DNA of 64,000 nucleotides from positions 248,001-312,000 of the forward strand of contig DASYYH010000023.1 of NCBI GenBank assembly GCA_035934015.1, in the 5' to 3' direction. The first letter of the stretch is position 1. Every line of letters begins with the position of its first letter. The notes beneath the pieces were generated by a model. The model worked only from the letters and a program-made list of their open reading frames with translations, had not been told where the DNA came from and did no database searches. The position numbers were made by a program, and so were the translations under genes. This DNA is from Candidatus Acidiferrales bacterium. Lineage in GTDB: Bacteria; Acidobacteriota; Terriglobia; Acidiferrales; UBA7541. Below are positions 51,790-58,007 of the stretch, one piece after another.

Positions 51790-54700
51790 TCAGTAGATGT
51801 CGTACTGCTCCCAGTGAAGGGTCGGGTCGGCTTGAATAATGATGCTCTTGCGCGTCAATTGTTCGAGCTCATCCATCATCGCCGATTCGCGTGTCTTGAG
51901 CGCCTTGGCGATCTCCGGATGCACGCGCAGCGTCAGGCTCGCCGAATCGAGCTCCGGCGCCATTTTGCGCGCTTCGGACTGAATCTCATAGCACAGCGTC
52001 GGAATCGACTTCACCATGCCCGAGCCAGTGCAGTACGGACACGGCTGGCACAGCGTGCGCTCCAGCGCCTGCTTCGTGCGTTTGCGCGTAATGGCCACAA
52101 GCCCGAATTCGTTGAAGCGCAGTACCTTTGATGGCGCGCGGTCCGACTTCAATGCATCTTCGAGTGCCGCCATCACCTTTTCGCGGTTGCGCCGCTCCTC
52201 CATGTCGATGAAGTCGATGATGATGATCCCGCCCAAATCCCGCAGCCGGATTTGCCGCACGATCTCCTTCACCGCTTCGATGTTTGTCTTGACGATCGTG
52301 TCTTCCAGGCGATTCGATCCGCGACCCACGAATTTCCCCGTGTTGACGTCGATGGCCACGAGCGCTTCCGTGTGATTGATCACGATGTAGCCGCCCGATT
52401 TCAGCCACACTTTTGGCCGCAGCCCTTTGTCGATTTCCTGCTGAATCCCGAATTCCTCGAAAATCGGCGTCGACTTCGTGAACAGCTTCACGCGGTTCGC
52501 CAGCGTCGGCTGGAAGCGGCTCACGAATTCCAGAACCTTCGTGTATTCCTCCTCCGAATCGACCCAGATCGCCGTGTAATCCGAACTCAAATAGTCGCGG
52601 AGAATTCTCTCGACGAGGTTCAAATCGCGGTGCAGCAGCGACGGCGCTTTGCGCTGCTCGCCGCGTTCTTTGATCTCCGCCCAGGTCTTCGTCAGGAATT
52701 CAACGTCCGCGCGCACTTCCTCGGGTGCCGCGCTCGCCGCAGCCGTGCGCACGATGAATCCGCCGCCGGCCGCCCCTTTCGCTTCGGTCACGAGATGCCG
52801 CAAACGGGAACGCTCTTCCGCCGACGCGATTTTTCGCGACACGCCGGTGTGATCGAGTGTCGGCATATAAACCAAGAATCGCCCCGGCAGCGCGATATGA
52901 CTCGTGATTCGTGCGCCTTTTTTGCCGAGCGGTTCTTTCGCGATCTGCACGATGATTTCCTGCCCCGCTTTCAGCAAATCGGAAATCAACTGCGTCCGCC
53001 GCGGCTGTCCCCGGTGATGTCCGCCGTGTCCTCGGAATGGTTTCCGCCCGCGTCCGCGGTCTCGTCCGCCGCGCCTCATTGGTCGCTGCATACGCGCGCG
53101 AAAATCGCCGCGCACGCGCGCTTGCATCGGCTGAGGCTGCTCTTCATCTTCTTTCGCTGCTATTTCCGCGCCCTGCTCCGCCGCCTGCTCGCCAAGTTCG
53201 ATCGCTTCCGCGATGGCTTCTGCGTCCGCTTCGCTCACGCCAGAAGGAATTTCCTCGTCCTCTTCCACTTCACCGGCTTCGCCAATAGCATCTTCATCTT
53301 CGATCGCGTCGCGCTCCGCGTCTGATGCGCCTTCGTCAATCTCTGTCATTTCCGCCGCGGCCTGCACGCCATTTTCTTCGAAGCCTGCTTCCTGGCCGTC
53401 TTCATTTTCCGCAGCTTCTTGCGCTTCCGCGGCGCGAGCCTCCTCGGCGTTGCGCTCCGCTTCTTCCTGCTGCGCTTCGGCCACCTGCTCCGCAAGCGCC
53501 GCGGCTTCCTCTTCGCTCAACTCCGCCGCGTGAGGCACTTCGTCCGGCTCGACAAAATGGGTGGTCTCCTCATGCGCAATCACCGCCGCGGGATCCTTGT
53601 CTCCCTCGACAATCTCGTCCTCGTGAATCTCTTTTTCGTGAACGTGCGTCTCCTGTGCTTCGGAGACAAACGCCACATGTGATTCGCCAGCGCTTGCCGT
53701 CGTCTCCTGCGATTTCGCCTTCGCCAGCGACTCTCCCGGCAGTGGCTCTAGCGCCGTCGCCCAGCCTTGACTCGGTTCTTCTTGGCGACGGCCGAACTCG
53801 CGTCTTCCGCGGCCGTGTCTGTCGCGTCCACGATCCCGCCCGTAACGCCCGCCCCGATCGCCATGGCCTCCGCGCGAATAACCAGGCGGAAACGGCTCAG
53901 CGGCCTCCTGTGGCGTCGTCGCGTGCGCGCCCGCCTCCTGAGCGCTTGCTTCTGGCGCACCGGTTTCCTGTGCGTTTTCTTCCGCGGTGGGGGTCACTTC
54001 CGGAGCGCCATCATTTTCAGGTATTGCATTGCCGAATTCCATCTCCGGCTTCGCTTCGCCGCTAGTTTCAGCAATGGGCTCCGCGCTTGTAACCGGAGTT
54101 ATAGGGCTCGCTTTGAGCACCGAGAGCGACTCGCCCGGCAACAGAACTGCCTCGAATGGTTCAGTCGGCCCCGCTTCCGATGGCTCATATGGCCGGTGCG
54201 AGGCGTATTTCGACGAAGGCAACTCACGTCCATGCCGCCCGCGGTCTCGTCCACCGTACCGTCCGTCGCGGCCGCGCCCTCCGCGTCCACGATCCCGCCC
54301 GCCACGGCCGTACCCGCCGCGATCGTCCCTGGATCTGCCACCCCGCCCAAAAGGACGCCCGTGATAACCATGCTGCTCCCGTCCCGTCGCGCTCATTGCC
54401 GGTTGCGAAGACTCGCCGCCGGTGTTTCCGGGATGGATTGTTTCGCCCGGCAGCGGCTCGACGTCAATCGGCTCGATCGCTCCTTGTCCAGGTGCGCCTG
54501 TTCCGCCGAATGCCTGGCCGCCTTGGTCTTCCATCTTGTGAATCTTTTCCTCGACGGTGTGAACCACCGTGTCGAATTCTTCTACGTCTTGCAGGAAATC
54601 TGTGACGTAAAGGAATGCGTCGCTATCGAGGCCGATATCCACAAAGGACGATTGCATGCCGGGAAGCACGCGCGTCACTCGCCCTTTGTATATGCTGCCG

Positions 54701-54813
54701 ACTAACGCAAATTCTTTTTCTCGTTCGACGTAAATCTCACAAAGCTGTCCATCTTCCAAAATCGCGACCCGCGTTTCGTGCGGGTTCGCGCAAACCACCA
54801 TCTCCTTCGCCAT
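51790..54813 (-). CDS. Ribonuclease E/G family protein with a very large insert in the S1 domain
   Basis: 1,007 residues; RNase G is normally near 490. The S1 domain begins IYKGRVTRVLPGMQSSFVDIGL (residues 41-62), is interrupted by about 510 residues (95-605), and resumes at GQEIIVQIAKEPLGKKGARITSHIALPGRFLVYMP. The insert is made of Arg-Gly blocks (about 150-200, 312-345, 566-607) separated by Ala/Glu-rich acidic stretches (380-560), and carries the motif LPGE[S/T] three times (121, 225, 358). The catalytic part is intact: Asp in ALVAIDVNTGKFVG, Asp in IIIIDFIDM, and the zinc-link Cys pairs CQPCPYC. The ATG at 54813 has GGAG upstream. Expected role: mRNA and rRNA processing. Confidence 0.95.
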   Translation of the reverse strand: MAKEMVVCANPHETRVAILEDGQLCEIYVEREKEFALVGSIYKGRVTRVLPGMQSSFVDIGLDSDAFLYVTDFLQDVEEFDTVVHTVEEKIHKMEDQGGQAFGGTGAPGQGAIEPIDVEPLPGETIHPGNTGGESSQPAMSATGREQHGYHGRPFGRGGRSRDDRGGYGRGGRDRGRGGRGRDGRYGGRDRGRHGRELPSSKYASHRPYEPSEAGPTEPFEAVLLPGESLSVLKASPITPVTSAEPIAETSGEAKPEMEFGNAIPENDGAPEVTPTAEENAQETGAPEASAQEAGAHATTPQEAAEPFPPGYSRGGHGDRGGRYGRDRGRDRHGRGRREFGRRQEEPSQGWATALEPLPGESLAKAKSQETTASAGESHVAFVSEAQETHVHEKEIHEDEIVEGDKDPAAVIAHEETTHFVEPDEVPHAAELSEEEAAALAEQVAEAQQEEAERNAEEARAAEAQEAAENEDGQEAGFEENGVQAAAEMTEIDEGASDAERDAIEDEDAIGEAGEVEEDEEIPSGVSEADAEAIAEAIELGEQAAEQGAEIAAKEDEEQPQPMQARVRGDFRARMQRPMRRGGRDRGRGRKPFRGHGGHHRGQPRRTQLISDLLKAGQEIIVQIAKEPLGKKGARITSHIALPGRFLVYMPTLDHTGVSRKIASAEERSRLRHLVTEAKGAAGGGFIVRTAAASAAPEEVRADVEFLTKTWAEIKERGEQRKAPSLLHRDLNLVERILRDYLSSDYTAIWVDSEEEYTKVLEFVSRFQPTLANRVKLFTKSTPIFEEFGIQQEIDKGLRPKVWLKSGGYIVINHTEALVAIDVNTGKFVGRGSNRLEDTIVKTNIEAVKEIVRQIRLRDLGGIIIIDFIDMEERRNREKVMAALEDALKSDRAPSKVLRFNEFGLVAITRKRTKQALERTLCQPCPYCTGSGMVKSIPTLCYEIQSEARKMAPELDSASLTLRVHPEIAKALKTRESAMMDELEQLTRKSIIIQADPTLHWEQYDIY

Positions 54814-55005: not shown

Positions 55006-56100
55006 TCAGTTGACGAATCGTTTTGTCCTCACGTTCATCACCAGGCCCAGAGCCAAAAATCCAAAAATCGTGGACGATCCCCCGTAACTCATAAACGGTA
55101 GCGGGATGCCCGTCACAGGCATGTACCCTATCACCATTCCAGCGTTGACCAGTACATGAAACGCTAGAATCGCGGCTACCCCCATCACGATATACATCCC
55201 CGCCCGGTCTTTTGCTTTTTGGGCGTTATCCACCAGCCGCAATAGCAGAGCCAGGTACAACAGTATGACCAATAGTACCCCGAAAAATCCCTGCTCCTCT
55301 GCCAGCGCGGCCAGGATGAAATCCGAATACCGGACCGGGACAAATCCTAATTGATTTTGGCTCCCTTTGCCAAACCCTTTGCCCCAGAATCCGCCCGAAC
55401 CCACAGCAATTTCCGATTGCAGGATTTGGTAACCAGCGCCGCGCGGATTTTCTGCTGGATTCAGGAAGGTCGACAAGCGTTGTTTCTGGTACGGCTTGAG
55501 GAAATGTCCGTTCCATCCCGCTACAGCCACCAAGCTTCCAAGCGCCACAACCGCTACCGCGTGCTTCCAATTAATCCCCGCGAGAAATGCTCCCACCACT
55601 GCCACCGGGAAAAGCACCATTGCCGTTCCCAGATCTGGCTGGAGCAAAACCAGTCCGGCCGGCACGCCCACCACCAAACCTACCTTCACCAAATCAGCCA
55701 GTGTCAGCCGCTCCGTTCGCACTTCGCTGAAATAGCGCGCCAGCACAATGATTATAATCAACTTTGCCAGCTCTGACACCTGCAAATCGACGCCGCCAAT
55801 AGCCACCCACCTTCGCGCCCCGAATCGTGAATGTCCTGCGGCCAAATCCAGAATCAGTGCACCAATGCATACCAGGTAGAGGACCAGCGACTGGTCGAGC
55901 AGCGTGTTGTAGTCGATCCGCGACAGGATCAGCATCCCCGCCAGTCCAATTGCGATCCACGTCAACTGCTTCCATTGCATTCCGTGCAGCGAACTTCCGT
56001 GCGTAGAGGAGTAGATTTCCAGCAGCCCAACCAAGCAAATCGTCAGCACGATGGCCAGCAGCCACCAATCGAGGTCAAATCCGCTTCGTCGCTCTCTCAT
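55006..56100 (-). CDS. rodA: Rod shape-determining glycosyltransferase RodA
   Basis: 364 residues with 10 predicted membrane helices. It matches the SEDS family (FtsW/RodA/SpoVE): KLIIIIVLARYFSEV, LVLLQPDLGTAMVLFPVAVV, SEIAVGSGGFWGKGFGKGSQNQLGFVPVRYSDFILAALAEEQGF and PLPFMSYGGSS. It polymerises glycan in sidewall synthesis with PBP2. The ATG at 56100 overlaps the mrdA stop by 4 nt (ATGA), so the pair is translationally coupled. The longer in-frame extension to 56328 lies inside mrdA. Confidence 0.96.
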   Translation of the reverse strand: MRERRSGFDLDWWLLAIVLTICLVGLLEIYSSTHGSSLHGMQWKQLTWIAIGLAGMLILSRIDYNTLLDQSLVLYLVCIGALILDLAAGHSRFGARRWVAIGGVDLQVSELAKLIIIIVLARYFSEVRTERLTLADLVKVGLVVGVPAGLVLLQPDLGTAMVLFPVAVVGAFLAGINWKHAVAVVALGSLVAVAGWNGHFLKPYQKQRLSTFLNPAENPRGAGYQILQSEIAVGSGGFWGKGFGKGSQNQLGFVPVRYSDFILAALAEEQGFFGVLLVILLYLALLLRLVDNAQKAKDRAGMYIVMGVAAILAFHVLVNAGMVIGYMPVTGIPLPFMSYGGSSTIFGFLALGLVMNVRTKRFVN

Positions 56101-58007
56101 TGCGTTTGCGGGGCTGTTTTGACGAGCTGCGCATGCGCCGGCCCTTGAGGCGCCGCCTGCTTGGCCTGTAGTTCCTGAATCGGTTGTCCCAGTTTCTCTT
56201 GGTAATATGCTTCGATAAAGCGTGCTGCCAGCGGTGCCGCTATCCCACCGGCCTCCAAATGTGTATCCTGTACTAGTACCACTATGGCAATCTCTGGATT
56301 TCGCTTTGGCGCGAATCCCACAAACCACGTGTTGTAGCCATAAGCGCCCCTTCCTCCGGCGGAAACGCGCTCCAGAGCCTGCGCACTGATGGTCTGGGCT
56401 GTTCCCGTCTTCCCGCAGAATTCGACGTTCTGAAGCTTCGCCTGCACCAAAATCGGATAGCCGAGCAAATGAGCTGTGCCCCCATCCTCGTTCACTACGC
56501 CGTACATCCCATCAGTTACCTGTTCGACTGTGTTCTCCGATATTGGGAATCGCACGACCTTTACAGGGCCGAAATCCTTGAGCAGGTGCGGTTCGTAGAA
56601 GACTCCTCCAGAGGCGATTCCGCCGATCGTGCGTACAAGCTGGATGGGGGTGACCTCAATGGGGCCCTGGCCGATCGCGAGTGAAATCGTCGAGCCGGGA
56701 TACCATTTATGGTGATAGGTGTTCTCTACCCATTGCGACGACGGCACCAGCCCTGCTTCCTCGCTCGGAAGATCGATTCCGGTCTTCTTTCCCAGCCCAA
56801 GGGACGTTGCGTAGTAGGCAAGCCGGTCAACGCCTAGCCGTTCACCAACATTGTAAAAGAACACGTCGCACGATTGGACAATTGCGGTGTGTAGGCCAAC
56901 ATCGCCATGGCCTGAGTGGTGGGTGGACCACACCCAGTCATGGAAGACGCGCCCGTAAAAAGTTGCGTAGCCGGGGCAGAAGACATGAAAATCCCGCGGG
57001 GGCATACCCGATTCCAGCATCGCCACCGACTCCAGAATTTTGAACACAGACCCCGGAGCCAGTTGTGCCTGAATGGCGCGATCCAGCAGCGGCTTGTTGG
57101 GATCTGCATTCAGCGTTTTCCACTCACTGCCTGAAATCCGTACCGAGAAATCATTCGGATCATAGGCCGGATGGCTCGCCATCGCCAGAATTTCACCGTT
57201 GCGTGGGTCCATGGCGATGACGGATCCGACTTTCCCGGCCAGCTCATCCTCCGCGACGGACTGCAAGTCCATGTCGATCGTCAATCGGATCGGCTTTCCC
57301 GGGATTGGTTCCATGTCGTCGAGCGTGCGCACCGGCTTCCCGATGCTATTCACGATCACTCGCCGCATTCCGTCCGTGCCCGTCAAGGTGTCGTTATATT
57401 GTTTTTCGAGGCCCGCTTTGCCCACGATGTCACCGGGCTTGTACTTGTCGCCAGACTCTTCGAGTTGTTCCGGCGAAACTTCGCCGACGTACCCGATCAC
57501 ATGCGCGAGGAAATCATTCGGCGGATATTTTCTCCGCTGCACCAGCATCAATTCGAGTTCCGGCAAATCCACGCGATGGGACTCAACGAACGCAAGGTCC
57601 GCTTCGCTCGCTTCCGGTTTCACGACAATCGGCTGGAATTTTGGTTCGTCGCGCGCGGCATCGAGCTGCTGTTTGAGATCCTCCGCCGTGATATTGAGGC
57701 CCGATGTAATCTGTGGCATGTCCTTCTTGATTTGTGCGGGATCATCGCGCAGCAGAAGAATGCTGAAGGAAGGATAGTTGTCAACAATCACGCGGCCGTT
57801 GCGATCCAGCATTTTTCCCCGCGGCGCAATGATCGGAATGGATCGGATGCGGTTTCTTTCCGCAAGATCCGCGAAGTGGCCGGACTGAATGATTTGCAAT
57901 TTCCAAAAACCGAGAAGCAGAAGAACAACCCCCAGAACAATGCAGTACGAAACGAGGATTAATCGTCCCTGAGGAAGTCTCTGATCGTTGCCTACCCAAT
58001 TCGCCAC
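56097..58007 (-). CDS. mrdA: Penicillin-binding protein 2 (cell elongation transpeptidase)
   Basis: 636 residues. N-terminal membrane helix (LILVSYCIVLGVVLLLLGFW), dimerisation/pedestal region (IPIIAPRGKMLDRNGRVI), and the transpeptidase with SxxK in LAPGSVFKI, SxN-like SCD in IVQSCDVFFYN and KTG in EFCGKTGTAQ. The GTG start at 58007 has GGGAG upstream. It works with the overlapping RodA. mreBCD, usually next to it, are not in the window; upstream on the same strand lies the anti-sigma-type ATPase. Confidence 0.96.
   Translation of the reverse strand: MANWVGNDQRLPQGRLILVSYCIVLGVVLLLLGFWKLQIIQSGHFADLAERNRIRSIPIIAPRGKMLDRNGRVIVDNYPSFSILLLRDDPAQIKKDMPQITSGLNITAEDLKQQLDAARDEPKFQPIVVKPEASEADLAFVESHRVDLPELELMLVQRRKYPPNDFLAHVIGYVGEVSPEQLEESGDKYKPGDIVGKAGLEKQYNDTLTGTDGMRRVIVNSIGKPVRTLDDMEPIPGKPIRLTIDMDLQSVAEDELAGKVGSVIAMDPRNGEILAMASHPAYDPNDFSVRISGSEWKTLNADPNKPLLDRAIQAQLAPGSVFKILESVAMLESGMPPRDFHVFCPGYATFYGRVFHDWVWSTHHSGHGDVGLHTAIVQSCDVFFYNVGERLGVDRLAYYATSLGLGKKTGIDLPSEEAGLVPSSQWVENTYHHKWYPGSTISLAIGQGPIEVTPIQLVRTIGGIASGGVFYEPHLLKDFGPVKVVRFPISENTVEQVTDGMYGVVNEDGGTAHLLGYPILVQAKLQNVEFCGKTGTAQTISAQALERVSAGGRGAYGYNTWFVGFAPKRNPEIAIVVLVQDTHLEAGGIAAPLAARFIEAYYQEKLGQPIQELQAKQAAPQGPAHAQLVKTAPQTQ

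Follow-up and report, generated by a model that had tools for sequence, protein, structure and literature searches.

An RNase G-type endonuclease of Acidobacteriota carries a long, charge-blocked, predicted disordered insert in its S1 domain

Introduction

S1-domain inserts of 50 to 150 amino acids (aa) are known in RNase E of alphaproteobacteria (Caulobacter) and plants (PMC4245959). In Caulobacter crescentus RNase E (4OXP), the insert is charged, predicted to be disordered, and located on the RNA-entry side, and the helicase RhlB binds an S1/5'-sensor fragment that bears it (PMC4245959). Deletion of the S1 insert of Arabidopsis RNase E is reported, through a citation in PMC4245959, to lower activity. 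Here, we analyze a 64,000-nucleotide stretch of contig DASYYH010000023.1 from a Candidatus Acidiferrales bacterium (the window, to which all coordinates refer), in which an RNase G-type member of the RNase E/G family carries a far longer insert at the same site.

Disordered regions of RNase E also act as scaffolds. The alphaproteobacterial region that forms bacterial ribonucleoprotein bodies (BR-bodies) is disordered and alternates arginine-rich with acidic blocks (PMC10412687, PMC12691583), and the charge-blocked C-terminal region of Caulobacter RNase E suffices for condensates (PMC10412687). Moreover, degradosomes are assembled on the C-terminal domains of RNase E through short linear motifs (PMC11964227).

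No study of the RNA-decay machinery of Acidobacteriota was found in the open literature searched. Acidobacteriota are among the commonest soil bacteria. A 2011 survey gave the Fibrobacteres/Acidobacteria group one RNase E/G size, 511 aa, and predicted no degradosome-type complex (PMC3071783); the Terriglobia analyzed here do not fit that picture.

Results

The window encodes an rng-type RNase E/G whose S1 domain is split by an insert of about half the protein. The parts of the gene are as follows.

51790..54813, minus strand: rng-type RNase E/G gene, ATG start, 1007 aa (open reading frame [ORF], Pfam PF10150 and PF20833, NCBIfam)
54586..54813, minus strand: N-terminal strands and first part of the split S1 domain, residues 1-76 (alignment to E. 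coli RNase G and RNase E)
53002..54585, minus strand: disordered S1-loop insert, residues ~77-604, replacing E. coli RNase E residues 77-89
51793..53001, minus strand: rest of S1, 5' sensor, DNase I-like catalytic core, CPxC Zn-link and thioredoxin-like C-terminal domain, residues 605-1007

Residues 1-76 align ungapped with residues 1-74 of E. coli RNase G and with the N-terminal region and initial S1 segment of RNase E, and residues 610 onward align to the remainder of S1 and the catalytic domain of both enzymes. The loop between the two conserved S1 segments is ~533 aa, compared with 18 in E. coli RNase G and 13 in E. coli RNase E, for a net insert of ~515. An RNase E/G with about 510 residues inserted within S1 was the central claim of a first-pass annotation made from the sequence alone, and it is confirmed by the alignment; the position given there for the insert, 53000-54530, was correct to within 55 bases.

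The insert is retained throughout the class. RNase E/G was present in 59 of 61 genomes around the source. Every sufficiently complete copy had 274-723 aa in the S1-loop gap and 0-3 aa of tail, and two further class members had S1 loops of 786 and 871 aa. Long inserts (~270-870 aa) were found in 99/99 non-identical complete class inserts sampled, such that the loss among close relatives that the first-pass annotation had proposed to look for was not encountered. We also sampled 247 Acidobacteriota genomes across the phylum and built a tree of the enzyme core (85 rows, insert excluded, long branches flagged). The tree splits an RNase G group from a C-tailed group containing E. coli RNase E. S1 loops in the RNase G group measure 20-45 aa in the outer lineages, 39-86, 124-307 and 274-546 aa in three further lineages, and 271-868 aa in the source class, and every long-loop row sits in one clade (support 99, subject to the same flag). 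The pattern is consistent with a single origin of the long loop followed by growth, with the deep splits held as tentative because of the flagged long branches.

The insert is strongly patterned in charge. Acidic residues make up 22% of it and basic residues 11% (Arg being 81% of the latter), arranged as RG block 1, an acidic spacer, RG block 2, a long acidic stretch, and RG block 3.

54226..54405, minus strand: RG block 1, residues 137-196, net charge +3 and +8 in successive 30-aa windows
53785..53883, minus strand: RG block 2, residues 311-343 (charge/RG analysis)
53134..53685, minus strand: long acidic stretch of Ala and Glu, residues 377-560, with a net charge between -7 and -13 per 30 aa
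53401..53514, minus strand: predicted acidic helix within the acidic stretch, residues 434-471 (AlphaFold2)
53002..53118, minus strand: RG block 3, adjoining the S1 re-entry, residues 566-604 (charge/RG analysis)

Charge segregation of the insert reached z = 11.8 (40-aa windows, composition-preserving shuffles). The median for class inserts was 10.6, with 96% of them significant (p<0.01), and E. coli RNase E scored 5.4 in its tail and -1.6 in its catalytic domain. RG/GR dipeptides numbered 39 against 12.4 expected (maximum of 24 among 1000 shuffles), and 97% of class inserts carry a net positive charge over their final 60 aa. AlphaFold2 gave a predicted local distance difference test score (pLDDT) of ~30-40 over most of the insert, excepting a confident helix at residues 434-471 (78-91 over most of its length). 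The disorder and the condensate-like alternation of charge blocks claimed in the first-pass annotation both stand, and the insert is a charge-blocked disordered region of the kind that marks BR-body scaffolds. The simpler order in that annotation, RG-acidic-RG, was right as to the alternation and gives way to three RG blocks with an acidic spacer and a long acidic stretch, together with the invariant motifs described below. A universal acidic helix was considered and found unsupported, as a comparable helix-type run occurs in only 10/99 inserts.

Short motifs are fixed within the otherwise variable insert. LPGES[LI], often as LPGESLAKY[RK], occurs in 99/99 class inserts, with one to four LPGE[ST] copies each, compared with 2/19,800 shuffles, and the LPGE columns are invariant in a 40-sequence insert alignment.

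54439..54453, minus strand: LPGET motif, copy 1, residues 121-125 (motif scan)
54199..54222, minus strand: LPSSKYAS motif, residues 198-205 (SKYAS in 61/99 class inserts)
54127..54141, minus strand: LPGES motif, copy 2, residues 225-229 (the copy with the LPGE columns invariant in the alignment)
53728..53742, minus strand: LPGES motif, copy 3, residues 358-362 (motif scan)

LPGES[LI] was absent from 14/14 long inserts outside the class. Inserts of the sister clade instead carry [FL]ER[IV]x[DE][DE], in one or two copies each, in 8/8 checked (L201-L206, L209, L214), and that motif was found in 0/99 inserts of the source class. By analogy with the degradosome-assembling motifs of RNase E (PMC11964227), LPGES[LI] is a putative docking site, being fixed while its surroundings lose alignability, which is the usual mark of docking. 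We also considered LPGES as a motif common to several proteins and rejected this, since a pattern search of 13 genomes placed LPGES-type matches essentially within the rng-type gene alone.

The insert behaves as selected protein sequence. Between the source and the two nearest relatives compared, the ratio of nonsynonymous to synonymous substitution rates (dN/dS) was 0.12 and 0.10 in the insert and 0.01 and 0.03 in the core. Divergence is nonetheless fast: insert identity is 41-59% where core identity is 85-96%, and it drops below 50% within the family. In all relatives measured, the reading frame runs from one conserved S1 half through the insert into the other. Judging from the substitution ratios, we conclude that the insert is translated and under purifying selection while changing much faster than the core. 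The GC-rich DNA gives long antisense ORFs at the locus. Apparent N-terminal extensions of 260-600 aa in some copies from other classes (L207, L208, L228, L212, L221) were rejected as wrong-frame read-through of such DNA; only L213 has a plausible short extension, of ~100 aa.

The remainder of the protein is an RNase G-type enzyme. Pfam places RNase_E_G (PF10150) at residues 642-913 and RNase_E_G_Thio (PF20833, C-terminal thioredoxin-like) at 924-1006, and the top NCBIfam model is ribonuclease G at 505 bits, under the equivalog cut-off of 594. R689/T690, D822, N824, D867, C925 and C928 correspond to E. coli RNase E R169/T170, D303, N305, D346, C404 and C407, so that the protein has the family's PF10150 domain, catalytic aspartates, 5'-sensor pair and CPxC Zn-link; equivalents of F57, F67 and K112 are likewise conserved. 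Because the catalytic, 5'-sensor and Zn-link residues are all kept, the enzyme is very probably an active endonuclease. It is closer to RNase G than to RNase E, has a thioredoxin-like C-terminal domain, and groups in the core tree with E. coli rng, away from the E. coli rne/C-tailed clade (support 100, long branches flagged). Only 0-3 aa follow the core in the enzyme and its class relatives, in agreement with the first-pass annotation that the catalytic domain has no long tail, and a long C-terminal scaffold of the RNase E degradosome type is therefore lacking. That annotation had set the protein against tailed RNase E; the family holds, but the type is RNase G, and inserts at this site were already known (50-150 aa; PMC4245959). 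The nearest named relatives are Acidobacteriota metagenome-assembled genomes (MAGs) labeled Candidatus Acidiferrales and 'Terriglobia' or 'gp2'.

Comparison with described systems places the insert at a known site in a different type of host enzyme. The alignment to Caulobacter RNase E (4OXP) breaks at the same site, where chain residues 93 and 163 bracket a loop of ~69 aa. The two inserts share the S1 loop position on the RNA-entry side, a charged composition and predicted disorder, but the Caulobacter loop is about eight times shorter than the ~533 aa here and belongs to a C-tailed RNase E with a separate scaffold, whereas the host here is of the RNase G type. Plant chloroplast RNase E also has its insert inside S1, but in the 50-150 aa range and with no RG/acidic block series reported. 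The alphaproteobacterial BR-body region shares disorder, alternating arginine-rich and acidic blocks, and the same enzyme core, but it is C-terminal in an RNase E-type enzyme rather than within S1. E. coli RNase G resembles the acidobacterial enzyme in its whole-length core, thioredoxin-like C-terminal domain and cell-shape neighbors (E. coli rng lies beside mreBCD) and differs in being 489 aa long and scaffoldless, with an 18-aa S1 loop.

The source genome (3.37 Mb, 98.6% complete) encodes a single RNase E/G. RNase Y is absent from it, RNase J and PNPase are present, and none of the phylum-sample genomes positive for RNase Y belongs to the class. Inserts are longer in families that lack RNase Y (Mann-Whitney p 1.3e-4, uncorrected for phylogeny), a link that is suggestive only. 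Many other Acidobacteriota genomes have two copies. One is a short RNase G of ~510 aa; the other is longer and, in the copies examined, resembles RNase E and ends in a tail of 78-305 aa. The source genome yielded no canonical DEAD-box RNA helicase, but the gene might lie in its unassembled part; the top PF00270 matches read as MrfA-like, Mfd-, RecG-, PriA- and RapA-like proteins, DinG and SecA. By score, a high-scoring DEAD-box RNA helicase was likewise missing from nine other sampled acidobacterial genomes, and some close relatives do have one. We note that the set of decay endonucleases varies sharply across Acidobacteriota, largely by family: RNase Y only, RNase E/G only, both, or two RNase E/G paralogs.

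Finally, the rng-type gene follows rodA and PBP2, the cell-shape neighborhood expected for rng. Both upstream genes were named by inspection of their ORFs.

55006-56328, minus strand: mrdB/rodA
56097-58007, minus strand: mrdA/PBP2

Discussion

How the S1 insert serves the enzyme is best explained, at a probability of roughly 0.55, by an RNase G-type enzyme that acts as a degradosome or RNA-decay hub through its S1 arm, quite possibly inside an RNA-dependent condensate. RNase G in this lineage would have assumed the scaffolding role that elsewhere falls to RNase Y or to the tail of RNase E. The disordered arm of ~515 residues would exit S1 next to the groove through which RNA enters. Multivalent RNA binding is the probable role of its three RG blocks, and its acidic stretches may balance the RG blocks, attract RG blocks of neighboring subunits, and keep the groove unclogged. 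The short motifs LPGES[LI]AKY and SKYAS are probably where partners such as PNPase attach, and a presumed tetramer would present four arms and make the enzyme a degradosome hub. In favor, we count the class-wide insert, its purifying selection, LPGES[LI], the charge blocks, and the conserved active-site residues. We also count the sole RNase E/G in a genome with RNase J and PNPase and without RNase Y, the longer inserts where RNase Y is missing, the C-tailed RNase E beside a short RNase G in other lineages, and the Caulobacter condensate and RhlB precedents. Condensation by acidobacterial RNase G is plausible because the same charge pattern, in a C-terminal position, suffices for RNase E condensates in Caulobacter (PMC10412687). 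The invariant short motifs speak for the docking of partners no less than for condensation. Some points weigh on the other side. Disordered regions are often charge-blocked, and not all of them condense. AlphaFold2, on a shallow alignment, folded both S1 halves poorly, and the S1 geometry rests on homology. The link to RNase Y reduces to ~3 independent contrasts and could not be made phylogenetically significant, and some lineages hold both RNase Y and an insert of ~300 aa.

The chief alternative is that the insert gates the RNA groove locally: its acidic parts and helix would lie over S1 as an RNA mimic, restricting or choosing substrates, with the RG blocks feeding RNA in and no multi-protein scaffold being built. 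The Caulobacter insert structure suggests such a gate, and both the acidic helix predicted at residues 434-471 and the positive block retained by the S1 re-entry would suit it. An insert of 270-870 aa, however, is more than gating needs, the helix is scarce among class inserts, and LPGES resembles a docking site; we regard a gate as unlikely. The insert might instead be a nearly neutral linker that drifts in length, RG- and Glu-rich low-complexity DNA having expanded in a tolerant loop with constraint at its ends alone. Fast divergence and large length variation are what such a linker would show, but a dN/dS near 0.1, presence across the class, invariant LPGES[LI], and nonrandom charge blocks in nearly all inserts make it improbable.

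Two further alternatives are less probable again. An arm that binds RNA in the manner of RNase E's arginine-rich regions, raising substrate affinity without docking or condensation, would account for RG/GR dipeptides gathered far above chance in three blocks but would leave unexplained the non-arginine motifs kept in all members, and we give it little credence. Least probable is that the insert docks a DEAD-box RNA helicase, as RhlB is bound in the S1 insert region of Caulobacter RNase E. The insertion site is the same as in 4OXP and helicase binding has been shown in Caulobacter, but the insert and its motif are kept regardless of helicase. Docking of RhlB was set aside for the source genome, which yielded no DEAD-box helicase, and because nine sampled genomes also lack a high-scoring one, RhlB docking of the Caulobacter kind cannot be the function that the inserts have in common.

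The hub reading can be extended, although we favor the extension only tentatively and at less than even odds. Terriglobia and the sister clade might share a new type of degradosome in which the RNase G S1 loop is the scaffold, replacing both RNase Y and C-tailed RNase E, with clade-specific motifs (LPGES[LI]AKY; [FL]ER[IV]x[DE][DE]) and entry-side condensation with RNA. Both S1 insertion at this site and charge-blocked scaffolds on RNase E have precedents. As far as we found, the size of the insert, its tailless RNase G-type host, its fixation across a class, and the clade-specific motifs are new; no paper on disorder in acidobacterial RNase E/G was found in the open literature, subscription papers lying outside the search, and an earlier mention of acidobacterial S1 inserts is possible. 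If the insert is a scaffold, it would constitute a natural relocation experiment, the same charge-block logic having shifted from the tail to the RNA-entry loop, and would test whether position matters for RNA-decay bodies or patterning and motifs alone. The invariant LPGES motif is a concrete bait for partner finding.

Two minor observations concern related copies. The C-tailed RNase E copies L181, L215 and L220 have tails in which runs of 8-10 arginines alternate with acidic blocks, the same charge logic as the S1 insert at the opposite end of a paralog. In addition, contigs titled Betaproteobacteria and Acidimicrobiia (L122 and L169) encode RNase G with a Terriglobia-like long S1 insert, and these MAGs are probably mislabeled acidobacteria.
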